A DNA stretch of 64,000 nucleotides, taken from the NCBI GenBank assembly GCA_958296245.1, contig OY282458.1, positions 1,912,197-1,976,196 on the forward strand, written 5' to 3'. The notes under the pieces are model-generated. The model was not told where the DNA came from. It searched no databases and saw only the letters and a program-made list of their open reading frames with translations. Below, one piece after another: positions 50,917-55,365 of the stretch (positions are counted from its first letter, which is position 1; the number at the start of each line of letters is the position of its first letter). The DNA is from an uncultured Dehalococcoidia bacterium. GTDB lineage: Bacteria; Chloroflexota; Dehalococcoidia; Lucifugimonadales; G958296245. A program made the translations under genes and the position numbers.

Positions 50917-51891
50917 ATGATCGCACTTCCGCTTACGTCCGATAGGCTGGAGTTCGACAGCTACTCGGACGCCGTCGAGTCCTACACGTCGCGGGGCTGG
51001 ACGGACGGCCTGCCGATAATCCCTCCCACGCCCGACCGGGTGCGCGCATTCCTAGAGCGCGCCGGCCTCTCCCCGGCGGAAATCCTGGGCGCGGAGCCCA
51101 CCAAGGCCCGCGTGATCACCGCCGAGAAGGCGGCTGTCAACGCGGTCATGGCCGGCTGCCTGCCGGAGCACTTCATCGTGGTTGTCGAGGCCGTCAGGGC
51201 TATGGCCGAACCCAAGTTCAACCTGCACGCGGTCTCGGTCAGTACGATGGGCGCGGCTATTCTGGCGGTGGTCAATGGACCCATTGCGGTAGAGCTGGGG
51301 ATGAACTCCGGCGTCAGCGTCTTTGGTCCCGGCAACCGCGCCAACGCCACCATCGGCAGGGCGATCCGCCTCATACAGATAAACGCCACCGGGGCAGTTC
51401 CCGGCGAGCTGGACAAGGCGACGCTTGGCCACGCCGGCAAGTACACTTGGTGTATTGCCGAGGCCGAGGCCGTCAGCCCGTGGGAGCCTCTGCACGTCGA
51501 GCGCGGCTTCAGCGCCTCCGACAGCACCGTTTCTATCTTCGCCGGAATTTCTCCTATCCAGTCGGGGGCTTCCGGGGAGACCCCCGAGTCCGTGCTGGGC
51601 TCCCTCGGCGATGCGCTGAAGGTGACCGGGACGGGCCAGCAGGAGCTCGTGGTCATCCTCAGTCCCGAGACCTTAGGGCACATCAGCGCCGCCGGCTGGT
51701 CAAAGCATCAGGTCAAGAGCTACCTGTACGAGGTGTCGAAAGGCGGGACAGGCTCCGGGGTCGTGGATGGACCCGACGGCGTAACGGTCGTCGTCGCCGG
51801 GGGAGCCGCCGGGGGCGCCACTGCCATCGTTCCGCTCTGGGGCGGAGGCTCCAACTCGCAGTCAGTGACAAGGGCAATCGAGACGCCATAG
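50917..51891 (+). CDS. Conserved protein of unknown function, UGSC-selenoprotein partner
   Basis: 324 residues, AGGAG six bases before the ATG. It begins with an extended segment (YTSRGWTDGLPIIPPTPDRV), then an alpha/beta region with VITAEKAAVNAVMAGCLPEHF, AAILAVVNGPIAVELGMNSG, GPGNRANATIGRAIRL and KYTWCIAEAE, and a Gly-rich C-terminus (VVVAGGAAGGATAIVPLWGG). Two cysteines, in MAGCLP and YTWCIAE, could be redox-active. No signal or membrane helix. It precedes the UGSC selenoprotein on the same strand, and I take them as functional partners. Known enzymes were not recognised in it. Confidence 0.75.
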   Translation: MIALPLTSDRLEFDSYSDAVESYTSRGWTDGLPIIPPTPDRVRAFLERAGLSPAEILGAEPTKARVITAEKAAVNAVMAGCLPEHFIVVVEAVRAMAEPKFNLHAVSVSTMGAAILAVVNGPIAVELGMNSGVSVFGPGNRANATIGRAIRLIQINATGAVPGELDKATLGHAGKYTWCIAEAEAVSPWEPLHVERGFSASDSTVSIFAGISPIQSGASGETPESVLGSLGDALKVTGTGQQELVVILSPETLGHISAAGWSKHQVKSYLYEVSKGGTGSGVVDGPDGVTVVVAGGAAGGATAIVPLWGGGSNSQSVTRAIETP

Positions 51892-51946
51892 CAAGATACG
51901 GCATACGTGGGAGCGCAGAGAGGGGGTAACCCCTTATCGTACCCGG

Positions 51947-51970
51947 TATCTGAGGGATGTCCCTCAGATA
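51947..51970. repeat. Perfect inverted repeat between the partner gene and the UGSC gene (family B piece)
   Basis: TATCTGAGGG and CCCTCAGATA pair exactly around an ATGT loop. The half-sequence is the family B end. It may fold as an RNA hairpin in the 152-base gap between the two genes. No T-run follows, so it is not an evident terminator. Confidence 0.6.
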
Positions 51971-52043
51971 CGAAGCTCCTTCTTCCTTGGGGTTAAGAAG
52001 GGCCTCAGAGTTTACGGCAGCGGCTAGATGGGGAGGCAAAGCC

Positions 52044-52586
52044 ATGACAACAGCGACAAGGGTAGAAGTACTTGATCCGACGATAGCGCCGATTCCAGCG
52101 AGTGCGGTCAGAGCGTCCCGCCCCGATACGCTGGACGGGGCGACCGTCGGCTTGCTGGCCAACGGGAAGCCCAACGCGGACGAGCTCTTGGAGCTCGTGT
52201 ACGAGGTGCTGGCCGACAGGTACGAGTTCAAAGAAGTGGTCGCCCGCAACAAGGGCAACGCCTCGAGGCCGTGCCCCCGGGACCTTCTCGAAGAGATGGC
52301 CGCTCAGTGCGACTTGGTCATCACCTCTACCGGGGACTGAGGGTCCTGTTCGTCGTGCAGTGTGCACGACGCCATCGAGTTCGAGAAGCTGGAGGTGCCT
52401 GCTGCCGTCATATGCACCGAACCCTTCATGTCCAGCGCAAGGGCCATGTCCAAGATCGGCGGCATCCCCGACTATCCCTACGTGGTCCTACCGCACCCAG
52501 TCGGCAGCCTCTCGCAAAGCGACCTCCGGGACCGTGCCGTTCAGGCCGCCCCGGACGTCCTGAGCATCCTGCTCGCCAGAGGGTAG
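52044..52586 (+). CDS. UGSC-family selenoprotein, TGA = Sec99
   Basis: ATG 52044 (GGAGG eight bases upstream) to the stop ending 52586, 180 residues, with a single in-frame TGA at 52338-52340. Reading through gives DLVITSTGD-U-GSCSSCSVHDAIEFE, the U-G-S-C motif that names this family. Conserved flanks are GATVGLLANGKPNADELL upstream and PAAVICTEPF and VVLPHPVGSLS downstream, all intact. Three further cysteines near the Sec (C102, C105 and C77) suggest a selenenylsulfide redox site. The exact reaction of UGSC proteins is unknown. A 9-bp hairpin starts ten bases past the TGA. A gene caller would report two fragments. Confidence 0.92.
52351..52371 (+). promoter_or_regulatory. Candidate bacterial SECIS hairpin of the UGSC gene
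   Basis: CGTCGTGCA (52351-52359) and TGCACGACG (52363-52371) are perfect inverted arms around GTG, starting ten bases after the TGA and inside the coding frame. The position, and the G-U in the apical loop when the last pair is opened, match SelB recognition hairpins. Confidence 0.75.
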
Positions 52587-52639: not shown

Positions 52640-54184
52640 TCACTTCTGCCCTTTGTCGGCCGCGCGTCGAATCGTTGGCTCCGGCCCGGCCTGGCCCAGC
52701 CAGGTCGCCGCAGGGGCGCGGAACGAGGCAGCCACGGCCAGCGCGGCGAATGCTGCTCCGGCGAGCACGGCGTCGCCAAAGGCGCTGGCAACCGCCTCGT
52801 TCGCCGGCGACGCTTCGTTCAGGTACAGGCGTTCCCTGGCGGTGAATATCGCCCCTGTAATAGCCACGCCGACCGAAAAGGCTATGTGTCTCCCCATGGC
52901 AACCGACGCCGACGCCGTCCCCAGCCTGCTCAATGGCGCTGAGCCCATGATGACGCTGGTCACGACGGGTTCGAAGAACGCCGACCCCACGCCTCCTAAT
53001 ACCATCGCTGAGAAGATCACCGGTTCATCTGCGCCGGCGCCCAGCCTGCTCAGCCACAGGAGCGCCGCCATCAGCGCCCCATTGCCGAATATGAGGAAGA
53101 GGCGCGGGCCGAACCGGTCGGACAGCCACCCCGCCGCCGGCGCCAGGAATGTGCGGCCCACGAAGAATCCCGCGACGAACAGGCCCATCTTGCTTGACGA
53201 AAAGCCCAACGCGTCGATGAAGAAGAACGGCGCGACCAAGAGAATAGGTCCGTGGGACAGGTAATGACCTACCAGGACCACCAGTCCGGCAGCGTAGCCC
53301 CGTATCCTGAACAGCGCCCCATCGAGAATCGGCCTAGCCGCCCTCCGCTGTGTCCATATCAAGACGGGGGTCAGCCCCAGTCCGGCTGCCCCTAGCGCCA
53401 GTATCGGTGGGGAGCCGTAGCCGAGCTGCCCCCCCTGGTTCACCACCAGCAGGAAGCAGGCCATAGTTGCAAACAGCACCACCGCGCCCAAGTAGTCCAT
53501 CTTGAACCGCCCTCCCGTTGGCGTGTCGGACGGCAGAAGCCACCAAGCCAACAGGGCGCCCAGCGCACCGACGGGCGCCTGCACGTAGAACAGGGCGCGC
53601 CAGTCCAAGACGTCCAACAGGATCCCGCCCATCACGGGCCCCGCCGTGAGCCCGGCGCCCACGACCGCCCCGGAGAATCCCATCGCCCGCCCCCGCTCCC
53701 TGGGTGGGAATTGGGCGGTGATCAGGGCGTTCAGGTTCGACAATATCATCGAAGAGCCGACTCCCTGAAGCACACGGAACGCGATAAGCTGCCATATGTT
53801 GGCGGAGGCGGATGAGAGGAGCAGGCCCGTGATGGAAACGAGATAGCCGATGATGAAGACCCGCCGGCGTCCCGCGACGTCGCCCAGCCAGCCCAGCGTC
53901 ATGAGCAGCCCGATGCTGGTTACCCAGTACGCCACGTTCACCCACAACACCGTAGAGGTGTCGGCGTCGAATGCCTCAGCTACTGCCGGGTAGACCACGC
54001 CCACGACTCCCCCATCGAGCGTGGTCGCGAGCGTGCCGATGTTCATGACGGAGAGGAGGACCCAGCGGTTGGCAGCCAGCCTTTCCCGGATCGTCGTCGG
54101 TGGCGGGGAGTCCTTCAGTGTGGTATTCGCCTCCTGCGAGCTCCAGTGTGAACCGCGCCCCTGCGAACCTCTGCATGGTAGCAT
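52640..54184 (-). CDS. MFS transporter, DHA2/EmrB-like (14-helix drug:H+ antiporter type)
   Basis: Integral membrane protein of about 490-515 residues. It starts around TIRERLAANRWVLLSVMNIG, then the D1-like LDGGVVGVVYPAVAEAF, motif A LGWLGDVAGRRRVF and motif C-like GVGSSMILSNLNALITAQFP, GAVVGAGLTAGPVMGGILL. The multiple hydrophobic helices are typical of EmrB/QacA exporters, which expel hydrophobic compounds. The start is uncertain: ATG 54184 touches the divergent methyltransferase gene, while a CTG at 54118 has GGAGG eleven bases upstream. An open frame also continues to 54277. Substrate unknown. Confidence 0.88.
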   Translation of the reverse strand: MLPCRGSQGRGSHWSSQEANTTLKDSPPPTTIRERLAANRWVLLSVMNIGTLATTLDGGVVGVVYPAVAEAFDADTSTVLWVNVAYWVTSIGLLMTLGWLGDVAGRRRVFIIGYLVSITGLLLSSASANIWQLIAFRVLQGVGSSMILSNLNALITAQFPPRERGRAMGFSGAVVGAGLTAGPVMGGILLDVLDWRALFYVQAPVGALGALLAWWLLPSDTPTGGRFKMDYLGAVVLFATMACFLLVVNQGGQLGYGSPPILALGAAGLGLTPVLIWTQRRAARPILDGALFRIRGYAAGLVVLVGHYLSHGPILLVAPFFFIDALGFSSSKMGLFVAGFFVGRTFLAPAAGWLSDRFGPRLFLIFGNGALMAALLWLSRLGAGADEPVIFSAMVLGGVGSAFFEPVVTSVIMGSAPLSRLGTASASVAMGRHIAFSVGVAITGAIFTARERLYLNEASPANEAVASAFGDAVLAGAAFAALAVAASFRAPAATWLGQAGPEPTIRRAADKGQK

Positions 54185-54863
54185 GAGCGCCATGCCCGAA
54201 CCTTGCACAGTGTGCGGCTCCGCGCGCACGTCCTTCTTCCACGAGAGCCAGGACAAGCTGGGCCGCAGGGAGTTCATCCACTGCGGAAGATGTGACGCCG
54301 TCTTCGTCCCCAGGCATATGCACCTGAGCTTCCCGGCCCAGCGCGAGAGGTACTTGATCCACGAGAACGACCCTTTCGACCAGGGGTACCGCGGCTTCTT
54401 GGACCGGCTGCTGACCGAACTAATCCCCCTGCTGACTCCTGGGTCGCGCGGGCTCGATTACGGCGCGGGCCCTGGCCCTGCGCTGGCGATGATGATGAGG
54501 GAGCGCGGCTTCCGTATGCGCGTCTACGACCCCATCTTCCATCCGGATGACCGCACCCTTGAAGGTCGTTACGACTTCGTCACCTGCACCGAGACGTTCG
54601 AGCACCTGTCCAGCCCGACGCAGGAACTCGACCGGATCGAAGCGCTGCTCAAGCCTGGGGGGTGGCTCGGCGTGATGACGAGTATGCCGGACGACTGGAG
54701 CGCCTTCCCGGAATGGGGATATCACCGCGACCCGACCCACATCGCCTTCTACACCGAGACGACGATGCGATGGATAGCCCGGCGGTACGGTTGGCGGCCC
54801 CGCTTCCCGCGCCCCAACGTTGCCCTGTTCCACAAGCCGCCTTCACCCAATGCGCCTTGTTGA
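54183..54863 (+). CDS. Class I SAM-dependent methyltransferase with N-terminal zinc motif
   Basis: 226 residues from ATG 54183; a second ATG at 54192 is equally possible. The N-terminus has two Cys pairs, CTVCG and HCGRCD, likely a zinc ribbon. The Rossmann core shows motif I as GLDYGAGPGPALAMMM (about 90-105), YDPIF, FVTCTETFEHL, LLKPGGWLGVMT and DPTHIAFYTETTM. The H-x-x-D-P-T-H-x-x-F-Y pattern is typical of the Methyltransf_23 group in secondary metabolite or cell-surface contexts. Substrate unknown. Transcribed away from the MFS exporter gene; the shared promoter region is very short. Confidence 0.85.
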   Translation: MSAMPEPCTVCGSARTSFFHESQDKLGRREFIHCGRCDAVFVPRHMHLSFPAQRERYLIHENDPFDQGYRGFLDRLLTELIPLLTPGSRGLDYGAGPGPALAMMMRERGFRMRVYDPIFHPDDRTLEGRYDFVTCTETFEHLSSPTQELDRIEALLKPGGWLGVMTSMPDDWSAFPEWGYHRDPTHIAFYTETTMRWIARRYGWRPRFPRPNVALFHKPPSPNAPC

Positions 54864-54912: not shown

Positions 54913-55365
54913 GTAGCCGTTCAGACTTCGTGATGGCCTTTCGATTGGCGTAGCCCCGATAAAGCAGACGTCTTTGATTCCCACCCGCCCGCCCCTTGGT
55001 AACTGGGGGCGCAGCCCCCAGGCCCCCTGCTAGAGGGAGATAGTCGCACGGATTGAGCCGCACAAAGATGGTAACTGGGGGCACTGCCCCCAGACCCCCC
55101 TGCTAGAGGGAGATAGTCGCACGGATTGAGCCGCACAAAGATAGTAACTGGGGGCACTGCCCCCAGACCCCCTGCTAGAGGGAGATAGTCGCACGGATTG
55201 AGCCGCACAAAGATTAGTAACTGGGGGCACTGCCCCCAGACCCCCTGCCAGAGGGAGATAGTCGCACGGATTGAGCCGCACAAAGATGGTAACTGGGGGC
55301 ACTGCCCCCAGACCCCCCGGCTAGAGGGAGGATCTCTTTGGGTCTCACAGAGTCTGAACAGTTTC
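54913..55365. repeat. Family A dispersed repeat with internal five-fold tandem array
   Basis: Left end GTAGCCGTTCAGACTTCGTG, right end AGAGTCTGAACAGTTTC. Between them the hairpin core recurs at 54999, 55071, 55144, 55217 and 55289, a period of 72-73 bases. Each unit is GTAACTGGGGGCACTGCCCC plus CAGACCCCCTGCTAGAGGGA and a linker (TAGTCGCACGGATTGAGCCG). It fills most of the 590-base gap; nothing else is seen there. Units are near-identical, so expansion is recent. Confidence 0.9.

Follow-up and report, generated by a model that had tools for sequence, protein, structure and literature searches.

A UGSC-family selenoprotein from a Dehalococcoidia genome, its partner gene and its sequence kinship to GrdB and PrdB

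We analyzed a window of 64,000 nucleotides from the genome of an uncultured Dehalococcoidia bacterium and found a gene of the UGSC selenoprotein family, interrupted by a single in-frame TGA and preceded by a gene for a partner protein (Table 1). As a whole, the observations are best explained by a functional UGSC selenoprotein that acts as a single enzyme together with the protein encoded upstream (probability about 0.6). Taken by itself, the UGSC gene adds one more ordinary member to a known selenoprotein family. The upstream partner gene, a second UGSC copy in the same genome and a kinship to GrdB and PrdB go beyond the preliminary description of this locus. What the analysis adds of value is the partner and the GrdB/PrdB link: with them, a selenoprotein that had stood alone becomes a two-subunit enzyme open to testing. 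Both can guide co-expression, the type of reaction to look for and the structure to expect, and a UGSC protein studied without its partner might show nothing.

Table 1. Features of the window around the UGSC gene
Feature	Coordinates	Strand	Evidence
Obligate partner gene, 324 aa, no Pfam/NCBIfam family	50917..51891	+	profile searches; co-occurrence
Perfect inverted repeat between partner and UGSC genes, 12-bp stem, 2-base loop, no T run	51946..51971	.	
UGSC family (seleno)protein, 180 aa, Sec99 by TGA	52044..52586	+	PF24696 E 2.1e-57; NF041046 154.8 bits
In-frame TGA, predicted selenocysteine (Sec99)	52338..52340	+	TGA at this column in 116/119 distinct homologues
Cys102 codon, presumed resolving cysteine of UxxC, near-invariant	52347..52349	+	Cys in 118/119 homologues
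SECIS-like hairpin, 9-bp stem, loop GTG; conserved core 52354-52368	52351..52371	+	covariation and synonymous control, 112 sites
DHA2/EmrB-like MFS transporter, convergent, directly after UGSC	52640..54277	-	MFS_1 E 5.6e-49; TIGR00711 202.9 bits, below 230.2 cut-off

The UGSC frame opens with an ATG, preceded by GGGGAGG about 10 bases upstream, and closes with a TAG. Its coordinates and the 180-residue protein, split once by TGA at U-G-S-C, are exactly those given in the preliminary description. The PF24696 (UGSC) model matches residues 8-177 over model positions 1-171/172 (194.4 bits against a cut-off of 25), so that homology to the family extends along the whole reading frame past the TGA, and NF041046 (UGSC family (seleno)protein) exceeds its cut-off of 125 bits. 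Because both models score over their curated cut-offs, the gene can be placed in an already named selenoprotein family, as had been proposed. Compared with that family as defined by PF24696, NF041046 and the GOS selenoproteome (PMC2398784), it agrees in full-length match, motif, TGA-encoded Sec and SECIS element, and nothing essential differs; the family descriptions consulted contain neither a near-strict partner nor a kinship to GrdB/PrdB. A 2026 review includes UGSC and reports that the functions of such families are mostly uncharacterised (PMC13188914).

The window protein carries the family's U/C-G-S-C motif with its second cysteine (DUGSC, in the context GDUGSCSSC). Across 119 distinct homologues, the column of residue 99 holds Sec in 116, Cys in two and Thr in one. 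A redox centre involving both Cys102 and Cys105 had been suggested earlier. Cys102 is nearly invariant and fits this role, whereas Cys105 is a cysteine in just 54 of the 119 homologues, with Trp, Ala, Gly and Ser frequent at that position. This poor conservation leaves Sec99-Cys102 as the only candidate for a general redox pair. A fused paralogue with the motif DTRSG (L071:10238-12043) has Thr in the Sec column, has lost Cys102 and adjoins a Sec-containing copy; it is perhaps a non-catalytic version.

The arms CGTCGTGCA (52351-52359) and TGCACGACG (52363-52371) pair perfectly over 9 bp, and the stem begins 10 bases past the TGA, just as first described. We examined 112 distinct homologous stretches, each beginning at the TGA, for the six apical pairs (positions 17-22 with 26-31, the T of TGA being 1). 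As a control, codons were resampled synonymously in 300 runs, with each protein kept. Standard pairing at the six apical pairs was found in 93.75% of cells, compared with 64.2% after resampling (sd 1.5, maximum 68.0), and all six pairs were intact in 86 of the 112 sites, against a control mean of 4.8 and a maximum of 12. Several pairs covary: pair 19-29 occurs as T-A (71), G-T (20), C-G (6), A-T (5) and G-C (4), pair 21-27 as C-G (84) and G-C (25), and pair 20-28 as G-C (90) and C-G (11). The loop is conserved as well, with G at position 23 (52360) and T at position 24 (52361) in 100 of the 112 sites each. Fused proteins with the motif HUSTC form a minor clade, and their hairpin is placed differently. 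A scan of the window against Rfam at gathering thresholds gave zero matches. Taking sequence, position and covariation together, we conclude that the hairpin is very probably a real SECIS element. Two Cys forms of UGSC occur among the loci that we read; a SelA match is absent from the genome of one (L153) and present in that of the other (L101), and their hairpin positions keep 4/6 pairs, a sample too small for a conclusion.

The source genome is a single contig of 2.685 Mb and is 98.4% complete. The preliminary description had named the absence of Sec decoding genes as evidence against its reading; all of them are present, with SelA at 525.6 bits, SelB over its cut-off at 343 bits (neighbouring stretch included), SelD at 373 bits and tRNA-Sec at 65.9 bits. 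The SelD gene (C1:4795-5715) is itself interrupted by one in-frame TGA, so SelD is probably a selenoprotein. A second TGA-containing UGSC gene lies at C1:802288-803676 and is fused in frame to a C-terminal domain homologous to the window partner. Given the UGSC models, the full Sec machinery, the conservation of Sec and the covarying hairpin, we regard it as nearly certain that the window gene encodes a real selenoprotein, its Sec being predicted from sequence.

The partner gene belongs to no Pfam or NCBIfam family. Thirty-six members of the partner compared with Pfam gave nothing notable, their alignment contains no set of conserved cysteines that could hold an Fe-S cluster, and the closest relatives come from Dehalococcoidia and other Chloroflexi assemblies. 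Among 301 genomes drawn from the phylum, UGSC occurs in 32 and the partner in 32; both occur in 31, and each occurs alone in one. In one of the two exceptions (G251), the assembly is fragmented and UGSC lies 323 bases from the end of a contig; the other (G073) has the partner without UGSC. Fisher's test gives p 6e-40 for this co-occurrence, a value that ignores the relatedness of the genomes, is inflated by it and serves as a guide only. Copy numbers of UGSC and partner run in parallel in many genomes (for instance, 8/8 in G122, 6/6 in G145, 5/5 in G161 and 2/2 in the window's genome). An independent scan of species genomes that started from the partner alone returned 80 loci from many phyla, most of them with UGSC within the fetched stretch. 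For partner loci without a nearby UGSC, all seven genomes examined had UGSC elsewhere.

Out of 101 pairs of the two genes, 76 have the partner followed by UGSC on the same strand, 65 of these with a gap of <600 bases; another 24 have UGSC followed by the partner, all within <600 bases and with fusions included, and one pair lies on opposite strands. The partner accompanies UGSC adjoining it, fused to it or elsewhere in the genome. A 2008 GOS study described UGSC fused to a domain named Unknown_1 (PMC2398784), which is probably the same as the window partner. We consider it highly likely that the UGSC and partner proteins work as one complex.

The genes around the pair are highly varied, and include MFS transporters, amidohydrolases, acyl-CoA dehydrogenases, other dehydrogenases and solute receptors. 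In related loci, MFS genes were nominally enriched, at 10 near against 3 far; the p of 0.005 carries no correction for the nine tests made, and some loci are closely related. Their association with the pair is only suggestive. Amidohydrolase, SDR, luciferase-like, acyl-CoA dehydrogenase, TctC, TPP enzyme, NHL and TrxR genes showed no enrichment near the pair. A thioredoxin-reductase-like gene immediately follows UGSC at a single locus (L056). The neighbouring genes gave no pointer to a substrate. The pair gives the impression of a self-sufficient enzyme that occurs in differing catabolic surroundings.

Sequence comparison links UGSC to another group of selenoproteins. Among 39 UGSC members, weak matches were obtained for 15 with the GrdB model, 10 with GrdF and six with PrdB, and in the window protein the matches to Grd/Prd-type models, at residues 83-160 and 91-166, both include the Sec. 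The UGSC scores are far under the curated cut-offs (20.5 versus 602.2 for TIGR01917 and 17.6 versus 65.45 for TIGR01918). Aligned with hhalign to the GRDB proteins of the phylum, the UGSC profile gave a probability of 95.5 and an E-value of 1.4e-8, with Sec placed over Sec, whereas the reversed GRDB alignment, used as a control with the same UGSC profile, gave an E-value of 0.13. The GIPT and PHPxG motifs downstream of Sec are common to both profiles. These profile comparisons show homology between the Sec-bearing half of UGSC and the Sec domain of GrdB/PrdB, a link that we did not find in the literature searched.

With GrdB, PrdB and GrdF of the glycine, D-proline and sarcosine reductases (PF07355, TIGR01917, TIGR01918 and TIGR04483), UGSC shares the Sec region, GIPxxxI, PHPxG and UxxC. 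It differs in its size, with 180 residues compared with ~435 in the Chloroflexota GRDB proteins, and in the sequence of its partner, which showed no relation to the profiles of GrdB or of GrdE/PrdA, the usual co-subunit of GrdB/PrdB. Since the scores lie far below the cut-offs and no GrdE/PrdA-like partner was detected, we class the window protein as UGSC, at most GrdB-like in its working. The window's genome has no PF07355 protein. One Chloroflexota genome (G065) has three clustered GrdB-like proteins (L156, L177 and L179) with adjoining GrdE-like genes; the two that were read have the Sec motifs UGSC or UGTC, and this genome also carries a UGSC fusion.

Predicted structures were obtained for the genome's own UGSC-partner fusion (pLDDT 85.7, pTM 0.86) and for the window partner (pLDDT 84.8, pTM 0.88). 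In the fusion model, the Sec domain (27-184) is predicted to be parallel alpha/beta and Rossmann/flavodoxin-like; its best structural match in a second look was 8s7v_H (Z 11.1, rmsd 2.7, 126 aligned). This model is at odds with the Trx-like fold suggested earlier for UGSC (PMC2398784), although a fold is not excluded by being missing from a list of matches. The partner model gave no clear fold match among solved structures. An assignment of the partner to the class-I fumarases (fumarate hydratases) was considered and not accepted (best Foldseek E 8.2e-4, probability 0.77, TM 0.26; VIA-align Z <6). When the UGSC and partner profiles were compared with PDB sequences, only marginal matches were returned.

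The kinship to GrdB suggests what the pair might do. The partner would bind a small organic substrate and position it beside Sec. The Sec99 selenolate would then attack a carbon of the substrate and, in the way suggested for GrdB/PrdB, expel a leaving group; Cys102 would cleave the resulting selenoether, giving the reduced product and a Sec99-Cys102 selenenylsulfide, and a thioredoxin-type system would re-reduce the latter. The order of these steps follows schemes put forward for glycine and proline reductase, which are themselves debated (PMC10298544). Because the partner showed neither a sequence relation to GrdE/PrdA nor a clear fold match, the argument for shared chemistry comes from the Sec domain, and we put a reductive cleavage like that of GrdB at a little under even odds. 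More tentatively still, UGSC and its partner could represent a new class of two-subunit selenoenzyme that cleaves a small organic substrate reductively. Such an enzyme would have a GrdB-type Sec domain, with another kind of subunit binding the substrate where GrdB/PrdB have GrdE/PrdA, and would be widespread in Chloroflexota, Pseudomonadota, Poribacteria, Rokubacteria and others.

Other readings of the locus have to be weighed against an enzyme formed by UGSC and its partner. That the TGA is a true stop or a sequencing error, and the gene broken, is suggested by the TGA itself and nothing more; with TGA at the same column in nearly all homologues, homology along the whole downstream frame, a covarying hairpin and complete Sec machinery, this is hardly credible. 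UGSC could instead be a thioredoxin-like thiol/selenol oxidoreductase or a peroxidase, in which the Sec99-Cys102 pair acts on protein or small disulfides or on peroxides and the partner is a docking or substrate protein. The UxxC motif, which thioredoxin-like selenoproteins have in common with UGSC, and the near-invariant Cys102 are in line with this. We nevertheless think it unlikely, because the Sec domain is modelled as Rossmann/flavodoxin-like and its best matches are of the same kind, because its sequence kinship is to GrdB/PrdB, and because a single specific partner would be unusual for a general redoxin.

The pair may also be a non-redox enzyme, such as a selenol-based hydrolase or lyase, with Sec as the nucleophile and Cys102 merely protective. 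Class-I fumarate hydratases and cyclic amide hydrolases are the best matches of the partner model, and the loci lie among varied catabolic genes, both of which would suit such an enzyme. Those matches are weak (E 8e-4, TM 0.26; VIA Z <6), the partner lacks a conserved set of cysteines for an Fe-S cluster, and the near-strict conservation of UxxC points to redox chemistry, which makes this reading improbable.

Two repeated elements were seen in the window. The stretch around the inverted repeat that separates the partner and UGSC genes has two diverged relatives (76-78%) elsewhere in the genome, so the repeat is perhaps a small dispersed one. A 73-base unit is tandemly repeated at positions 54997-55330 (4.6 copies, 95% matches), and each unit contains an internal GGGGGCA/TGCCCCC palindrome.
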